Below, in pieces: positions 26,260 through 58,177 of a DNA stretch of 64,000 bases (position 1 is its first letter; the number at the start of each line of letters is the position of its first letter). A program made the translations under genes and the position numbers. Source of the stretch: Nucisporomicrobium flavum (GTDB lineage Bacteria > Actinomycetota > Actinomycetes > Mycobacteriales > Micromonosporaceae); contig NZ_JADMLH010000002.1 of assembly GCF_016464385.1 (NCBI RefSeq), forward strand, positions 248,001-312,000. Reading direction: 5' to 3'. Below the pieces are notes generated by a model, which did no database searches, was not told the origin of the DNA, and saw nothing but the letters and a program-made list of their open reading frames with translations.

Positions 26260-27345
<1,086 letters not shown>

Positions 27346-27523
27346 GGTGAATCGACTTCCTTTCCACCGGCAGGAACGTGCCGGACGATCCGAGTGGGAG
27401 GAACAGCCATGTGGCGGACCACACGCCCCGCCACCGTAAATGTTTTTTCATGTTCTGCCAAGGTCGCGGCGCGGCAACGGGCGTTTCGGCCCGGATGGCG
27501 GGAGCCGGTATGCTCAGGCGCAC

Positions 27524-49331: not shown

Positions 49332-49352
49332 GTTGGAAACACAACTGAATAC

Positions 49353-49489
49353 CTCATCCAGAGGGGCTGAGGGATACGGCCCGACGACGCCCCGGCAACC
49401 ACCGCGCATGACTCGATGACGAGGCAAGCGCGCGGCAGGTGCTAATTCCGTCCCGGAACCGCGGTGATCCCGCGCCCGGGGAAGATGAG
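49353..49489 (+). ncRNA. SAM-I riboswitch (S-box)
   Basis: The full SAM-I consensus is present: P1 arms CTCATC (49353-49358) and GATGAG (49484-49489) pair perfectly. Between them lie AGAGGGGCTGAGGGA, GGCCC, CCCCGGCAACC, a P3 stem (CCGCGC/GCGCGG) and GGTGCTAATTCC, then GAA before P1 3'. SAM binding stabilises P1. The ribosome site AAGGAG begins the base after P1 (49490), so ligand would most plausibly shut translation of the next gene. No intrinsic terminator is evident in the 13 bases left. Confidence 0.95.
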
Positions 49490-49502
49490 AAGGAGCCTCG
49501 TT

Positions 49503-50783
49503 ATGACGTCGACGGTCGACGCCCCCGCCAACACCACCAGCCCGGCCCGCGCGCTCGTCTGTCGCGGCTGCGGCACCGAGTTCCCCCTCGCCGCGCAGCA
49601 CGCGTGTTACGAGTGTTTCGGCCCCCTGGAAGTCGCGTACGACCCCGCCGCCCTCGCCGCCGTCACCCGCGAGCAGATCGAGGCCGGCCCGCAGAACATC
49701 TGGCGCTACGCCGCGCTCCTGCCCGCCGGCCAGGACCCCGCCACCCGCGTCACCCTCGACCCCGGCCTCACCCCGCTGATCAGCGCCCCGGCCCTCGCCG
49801 CGGAGATCGGCCTGCGCGCGCCGCTGTGGGTCAAGGACGACTCCGCCAACCCGACCCACTCCTTCAAGGACCGGGTCGTCTCCGTCGCCCTCACGGCCGC
49901 CCGCGAGCTGGGCTTCTCCCGCTTCGCCTGCGCCTCCACCGGCAACCTGGCCAACTCGGTCGCCGCGCACGCCGCCCGCGCCGGCGTCCCCAGCATCGTC
50001 TTCATCCCCAGCGACCTCGAGCCCGGCAAGGTCATCACCTCCGCGGTGTACGGCGGCGACCTGGTCGCCATCGAGGGCTCGTACGACGACGTCAACCGGC
50101 TCTGCGGCGAGCTCGTGGAGACCGACGAGTTCGAGGACACCGCGTTCGTCAACGTCAACGTGCGCCCGTTCTACGCCGAGGGCTCCAAGACCCTCGGGTA
50201 CGAGGTCGCCGAGCAGCTCGGCTGGCGCATCCCCGCCCAGGTCGTCATCCCGATGGCCTCCGGCGAGCTGCTCACCAAGGTCGACAAGGCGTTCAGCGAG
50301 CTGGTCGAGATCGGCCTGTGCGAGGCGCCCGAGGGCGGCTGGACCGTCTTCGGCGCCCAGTCCGCCGGCTGCAACCCCATCGCCACGGCGCTGCACAACG
50401 GCACCGACCAGATCATCCCCGTGAAGCCCACCGGCATCGCGAAGAGCCTCAACATCGGCGACCCGGCCGCGGGCGCGTACGCCATCGAGGCGGTGGAGCG
50501 CACCGGCGGCTGGATGGACTACGCCGACGACGACGAGATCCGGGAGGGCATCCGCCTGCTGGCCCGCACGACCGGCGTCTTCGCCGAGACCGCGGGAGGC
50601 GTCACCGTGGCGGTCCTGAAGAAGCTGGTGGCCTCCGGCAAGCTCGACCCGGAGAAGGAGACGGTCGTCTACAACACCGGCGAGGGCCTCAAGACGATCG
50701 ACGCGGTCGAGGGCCAGGTCGGCCCCACCCACCGGATCAAGCCCTCCCTGCGCGGCGCGCGCGAGGCCGGCCTGCTCGGATAA
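49503..50783 (+). CDS. thrC: Threonine synthase-like PLP enzyme with N-terminal zinc ribbon
   Basis: A 426-residue fold-type II PLP enzyme. Residues 20-45 form a zinc ribbon (CRGCGTEF and CYECFGPL). The PLP lysine is in NPTHSFKDRVV, the phosphate loop is STGNLANSVAAHAARAG, and GCNPIATALHNG is near the C-terminal half. Threonine synthase makes threonine from O-phosphohomoserine. Streptomyces has two such genes, and I recall the longer one lying near groEL2 as here. Control by a SAM-I riboswitch points to a link with methionine or sulfur metabolism. AAGGAG lies 7 bases before ATG 49503. Confidence 0.85.
   Translation: MTSTVDAPANTTSPARALVCRGCGTEFPLAAQHACYECFGPLEVAYDPAALAAVTREQIEAGPQNIWRYAALLPAGQDPATRVTLDPGLTPLISAPALAAEIGLRAPLWVKDDSANPTHSFKDRVVSVALTAARELGFSRFACASTGNLANSVAAHAARAGVPSIVFIPSDLEPGKVITSAVYGGDLVAIEGSYDDVNRLCGELVETDEFEDTAFVNVNVRPFYAEGSKTLGYEVAEQLGWRIPAQVVIPMASGELLTKVDKAFSELVEIGLCEAPEGGWTVFGAQSAGCNPIATALHNGTDQIIPVKPTGIAKSLNIGDPAAGAYAIEAVERTGGWMDYADDDEIREGIRLLARTTGVFAETAGGVTVAVLKKLVASGKLDPEKETVVYNTGEGLKTIDAVEGQVGPTHRIKPSLRGAREAGLLG

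Positions 50784-56336: not shown

Positions 56337-58177
<1,841 letters not shown>

Follow-up and report, generated by a model that had tools for sequence, protein, structure and literature searches.

A SAM-I riboswitch ahead of a threonine synthase-like gene in Nucisporomicrobium flavum: a probable MetM-type homocysteine synthase for which no MetO-type sulfur carrier was found

SAM-I riboswitches as a rule turn genes off, and in Nucisporomicrobium flavum (Micromonosporaceae) such a riboswitch stands ahead of a gene that would be labelled a threonine synthase. Why should a methionine switch govern a threonine gene? We have addressed this question for a stretch of 64,000 nucleotides (contig NZ_JADMLH010000002.1, positions 248,001 to 312,000), hereafter called the window. 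With a probability of roughly 85%, we take the gene to be a homologue of the homocysteine synthase MetM that makes homocysteine, is shut off by SAM and works beside a separate threonine synthase ThrC, its sulfur coming from the carrier protein CysO or from free sulfide. At its core, the system has been described before and is here extended to another host family, with one real difference: its dedicated carrier was not found. The features on which the argument draws are collected in Table 1.

Table 1 Features of the riboswitch locus (positions in the window) and ThiS-family matches in the N. flavum genome
Feature	Position	Strand	Basis or context
SAM-I (S-box) riboswitch aptamer	49351..49491	+	RF00162, 68.2 bits, E 9e-14
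P1 helix, 5' strand CUCAUC	49353..49358	+	read from sequence
P1 helix, 3' strand GAUGAG	49484..49489	+	read from sequence
Shine-Dalgarno-like AAGGAG, abutting P1	49490..49495	+	read from sequence
metM homologue (threonine synthase family, PLP enzyme with zinc ribbon), probably a homocysteine synthase acting on O-phosphohomoserine	49503..50783	+	profiles, tree, motifs
ThiS-family match 1			CysO beside cysM
ThiS-family match 2			ThiS beside thiG-like gene
ThiS-family match 3			MoaD beside moaA-like gene
ThiS-family match 4	G000:C34:314319-314585 (L009 1501-1767)		BNR-linked MoaD-like protein
ThiS-family match 5			part of 596-aa frame

The observation itself, a SAM-I RNA before a threonine synthase-like gene, is confirmed. 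A sequence-only reading of the window had claimed a full S-box aptamer at this place, and the Rfam covariance model is indeed matched over its entire length (model positions 1-108), with a score that exceeds the gathering score of 44.4. It is the sole RF00162 match found across the 9,020,180 bases of the genome. The aptamer is separated from the gene by 11 bases, and the ribosome-binding site follows P1 directly, as the same reading had it. P1 ends 13 bases ahead of the start codon ATG at 49503, too close for a terminator to fit in, and control is therefore most likely translational. Both P1 strands are identical in all 79 named Micromonosporaceae loci with an upstream region. Folding of the leader with P1 forced did not close the Shine-Dalgarno sequence (mean openness 0.58 free and 0.55 forced, with a rise in 36 of 80), and the unforced minimum-energy fold of the leader was without P1 and not more stable than shuffled sequences (z -0.72). 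As a separate observation, a conserved CUC lies between the Shine-Dalgarno sequence and the start codon (window 49490-49502) and could pair with the 3' strand of P1. Of 40 distinct Micromonosporaceae spacers, 39 allow a stem of at least 4, and none of 300 shuffles reached the observed mean, both figures being weak because the compared rows are related.

The combination of RNA and gene was followed through the class. A homologue of the window gene was found at E<=1e-60 in 165 of the 246 class genomes sampled, and a SAM-I RNA occurred in 162 of these 165 genomes as opposed to 6 of the 81 without the homologue (presence tallies, here and for MetX below, were taken from per-genome rows). Rfam was run on 60 loci from 59 genomes in 27 families, and at all 60 the aptamer lies upstream of the gene on the same strand; its distance from the first aligned residue is 9-302 bases, in 58 cases at most 115. 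Moreover, among 80 named Micromonosporaceae loci, all assigned to the family by genus names, 79 have the core motif of the aptamer ahead of the gene, which argues against a chance pairing; at the 80th locus (L125) the contig end coincides with the start of the match, hence there is no upstream sequence. The groEL gene is located downstream of the metM homologue (window 56555-58174, plus strand), and it was also seen near metM in 35 of the 80 named loci, within the available DNA, and in 19 of 40 class loci. Two further kinds of RNA may be recorded here. Three genomes of family f14 carry c-di-AMP riboswitches near the metM locus (L151 1785-1961, L046 3723-3879, L047 3616-3766). Elsewhere in the window, an msiK RNA (RF01747, 48.8 bits; 27351-27408, minus strand) stands directly ahead of a gene for an MsiK-like sugar ABC ATPase with ABC_tran, OB_MalK and TOBE_2 domains (26260-27345, minus strand).

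The window gene codes for 426 amino acids and its product belongs to PF00291. An N-terminal CxxC...CxxC pattern like that of a zinc ribbon is shared by the protein and all 150 homologous loci inspected, a set that includes the gene itself and counts genome G095 twice. The TIGR00260 thrC model is matched with 238.5 bits (cut-off 167.1). Thus, the description of the gene as zinc-ribbon threonine synthase-like, made from the letters alone, is borne out. The nearest PDB relatives are threonine synthases (6cgq with 163.5 and 1uim with 159.6 bits, over residues 63-401 of 426), and the canonical ThrC proteins (6cgq, 1uim, 2d1f) and the window protein form one family. Within this family, the stretch FVNxx[VIL]RxxYxEGSKT sets the window gene apart: every one of the 150 homologous loci has it, and the three further ThrC-like paralogues of N. 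flavum do not. We take this stretch to be a contact with the phosphate of the substrate in threonine synthase. The canonical ThrC of the same genome has NSVNIFRLHGQKT in its place and is without the zinc-ribbon pattern. A tree built from 79 proteins separates 76 homologues of the window gene from the three paralogues with a branch support of 96/92. Of these 76, 40 have an adjacent metO-like gene, and it was by way of these metM-metO pairs that membership of the MetM clade was judged, the MetM sequence of Streptomyces albulus itself being absent from the tree. By sequence, the window gene is a MetM homologue in a clade apart from canonical ThrC.

Such genes have a published precedent. According to excerpts of PMC12172450, which cites Hasebe 2024, Streptomyces possesses the homocysteine synthase MetM, which has homologues in cyanobacteria, and a SAM riboswitch is located upstream of metM in S. 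albulus. The excerpts also relate S. albulus metO to a sulfur-carrier gene beside thrC in Microcystis, whose ThrC shares 51.6% identity with MetM, is described without a riboswitch and behaves as a threonine synthase and deaminase, an unidentified product near methionine being mentioned as well (PMC12172450). PMC8079986 assigns a transcribed SAM riboswitch of S. lividans, located ahead of SLIV_16930-SLIV_16925, to threonine biosynthesis, and according to PMC4365011 metE, metH and metK of streptomycetes are without a SAM riboswitch. Among the open-licence papers listed, none dealt with metM of Micromonosporaceae or with metM lacking metO. The window gene resembles the S. albulus system, as far as the excerpts describe it, in the threonine synthase-like enzyme, in O-phosphohomoserine as the presumed substrate and in the upstream SAM riboswitch. 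In other families of the class, a MetO-like carrier gene follows metM, often near groEL, which also lies downstream here. In contrast to S. albulus, metO is not downstream in N. flavum, and a MetO-type carrier was not found in its genome.

The complement of other methionine genes varies. Of the 165 genomes that carry the gene, 69 have a strong MetX, as have 72 of the 81 without it, at a chosen threshold of E<=1e-90, by which a few genomes with matches at 1e-39 to 1e-48 were scored as having none. As strong MetX co-occurs with the gene in those 69 genomes, MetM need not be the sole route there. Nine genomes have neither a metM homologue nor a strong MetX; some are incomplete, but G081 is 100% and G010 99% complete. 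In N. flavum, the search for a strong MetX gave a best match of E 6.4e-5 only, and neither of the two same-family genomes has one. MetB (NF005871, 649 against 513) and a cystathionine gamma-lyase (NF005758, 556 against 440) are present. A divergent homologue of homoserine acyltransferases (PF04204, 190 bits; NCBIfam MetA, 151 against a cut-off of 460.5) is encoded on contig C34 (L139, G000:C34:66000-78000). It is flanked by diaminobutyrate aminotransferase-like and amino-acid-kinase (aspartokinase-like) genes, and its vicinity also includes an NRPS gene and a gene resembling lysine/ornithine monooxygenases. These NRPS-type neighbours suggest that it belongs to a specialised-metabolite cluster, which from its gene content seems to have its own homoserine or diaminobutyrate chemistry. 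We thus found no true MetX in this genome and only a divergent MetA homologue, and a classical methionine route through the latter is possible.

If the window gene encodes MetM, where does the sulfur come from? Hasebe and co-workers are said to have identified thiocarboxylated MetO in 2024 as the sulfur donor for MetM. The metO gene directly follows metM in 19 of the 27 families examined and is lacking from this place in 8. Among class loci L145-L183, a MetO-like carrier gene directly follows metM in 35 of 39, the exceptions being L147, L150, L173 and L176. Among L023-L051 it was found in 5 of 29 (L045-L047, L049 and L051), where some loci have little downstream sequence (30 bases in L036, 362 in L040). 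The other 24 belong to the two same-family genomes, to f18 (19 loci) and to f9, f22 and f23 with a single locus apiece; our guess for the unnamed families is that f18 is Frankia-like and that f19 is Streptomyces. None of the 80 named Micromonosporaceae loci has a MetO-like gene beside metM at E<=1e-5, with at least 4.5 kb of downstream sequence in 75 of them. No metO remnant was found downstream in the window, where the best MetO match anywhere (E 3.1) is not beside the gene, and a CysO query had no match in the window up to E 10. On the tree, metO presence changes 6 to 7 times, at least 4 of these changes being forced by well-supported branches, and metO has therefore probably been lost repeatedly or else gained more than once.

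The five ThiS-family matches in the N. flavum genome (Table 1) include no MetO-type carrier. The BNR-linked MoaD-like protein ends in GG and its gene adjoins a BNR-repeat gene. A number of genomes from other families have weak MoaD-like matches of this type, but the same-family genomes G095 and G196 have none; hence we consider this protein a less likely carrier for MetM than CysO. With the N. flavum CysO as query, 65 genomes were surveyed. Two carriers are present in each of the 17 genomes in which metO adjoins metM: a CysO-like protein (60-74% to the query) and, encoded beside metM, a MetO (46-55%). In families without adjacent metO, a CysO-like match (63-100%) was found in 38 of 40 genomes and a MetO-type match in none of the 40; for f9, f13 and f32, most genomes were assigned to this group by family, and the metM locus was read in G008, G108, G012 and G040. 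A further weak carrier match of 33-39% is present in nine of the 40, G152 has two strong CysO-like matches, and G074 and G119, with a completeness of 84% and 82%, gave no carrier match at all. In family f2, four of 8 genomes surveyed have a CysO-like match and four have none, and those of the 8 that are among the genomes listed in the homologue survey had no metM match. The cysM gene lies beside the carrier in all 30 loci returned, 27 of which are from families without metO.

Since the Micromonosporaceae are without the usual dedicated carrier MetO, CysO or free sulfide comes into question as the sulfur source, and CysO, being the closest carrier left and located beside cysM, may serve both the cysteine and the methionine pathway. 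The mycobacterial Mec+/CysO/CysM route converts phosphoserine to cysteine and resembles this arrangement in that a carrier passes the sulfur on to a PLP enzyme belonging to the same fold family. Its counterpart is found on contig C8, where a JAB-domain gene (C8:74429, mec+-like), cysO and cysM are neighbours in one row; C7 encodes a ThiF-type activating enzyme. The difference is that the only SAM-I match of the genome is on the window gene and not on cysM. The homocysteine synthase of Micromonosporaceae could also use free sulfide and work without a carrier. This variant of the preferred explanation accords with the failure to find a MetO-type carrier in the genome or beside the gene in the 80 named loci, but the set of carrier genes on C8, the ThiF-type enzyme and the retention of a CysO-like carrier in those 38 of 40 genomes speak against it, and we regard it as rather unlikely.

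A different answer to the opening question would be that the gene is a second, plain threonine synthase, its SAM switch being retained to balance the threonine and methionine branches. The TIGR00260 score and the PDB relatives favour such a role, as does the threonine synthase activity ascribed to the Microcystis relative in the excerpts of PMC12172450. However, the genome contains three more full-length ThrC-like genes, on contigs C34, C5 and C21. The thrC on C34 (L003; TIGR00260, 317.9 bits) is placed after the homoserine dehydrogenase gene hom (PF00742, 221 bits), and thrB is on C34 too (215.4 bits against 168.25). The C5 protein (406 aa) exceeds the cut-off of NF006050 with 622.8 bits, and the C21 protein is under the cut-offs of all threonine synthase models listed for it. 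The window gene is thus neither the sole nor the hom-linked thrC, the latter being at G000:C34. The sequence-only reading had asked whether a separate canonical thrC exists and had held that a sole thrC would speak against a sulfur product; given the thrC behind hom and thrB, this objection does not apply. Furthermore, a SAM switch that cuts the threonine supply when methionine is ample has no evident use, and both the occurrence of switch and gene together in 162 of 165 genomes and the clade stretch that is replaced in the canonical ThrC argue against a plain threonine synthase, which we consider improbable. A synthase for cysteate or another sulfonate from sulfite, a role that had also been suggested, is very improbable and was rejected: the methanogen cysteate synthase is likewise a threonine synthase paralogue, but the window protein scores only 42.2 bits with TIGR03844 against a cut-off of 324.9.

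The preferred reading, a MetM-type homocysteine synthase, predicts the following course of events. ThrB would make O-phosphohomoserine, which would be used either by ThrC for threonine or by MetM, the latter exchanging the phosphate for sulfur to yield homocysteine. The precedent of SAM-I switches and the contact between P1 and the Shine-Dalgarno sequence suggest an off-switch: at high SAM, P1 would form against the Shine-Dalgarno sequence, metM would remain untranslated and phosphohomoserine would be left for threonine synthesis, presumably by the separate canonical ThrC behind hom. The sulfur would most likely be donated by thiocarboxylated CysO, shared with CysM, with free sulfide as the second choice. 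The idea that O-phosphohomoserine is diverted into a sulfur product, homocysteine being named first, had already been put forward in the sequence-only reading; this predicted role is supported in that it agrees with the MetM precedent, the separate thrC and thrB, and the clade. We propose more tentatively, at odds somewhat short of even, that MetO is absent from Micromonosporaceae and several other actinomycete lineages, probably after several losses, that one thiocarboxylated CysO feeds both CysM and MetM, and that the syntheses of cysteine and methionine compete for it, with the SAM switch of metM deciding the split.

The MetM reading would explain the apparent paradox of a methionine switch on a gene with a threonine label. 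With homologues in 165 of the 246 class genomes sampled, many members of the threonine synthase family in actinomycetes probably serve methionine synthesis. Moreover, the absence of MetO offers a clean way of testing whether cysteine and methionine synthesis can share a single sulfur carrier.
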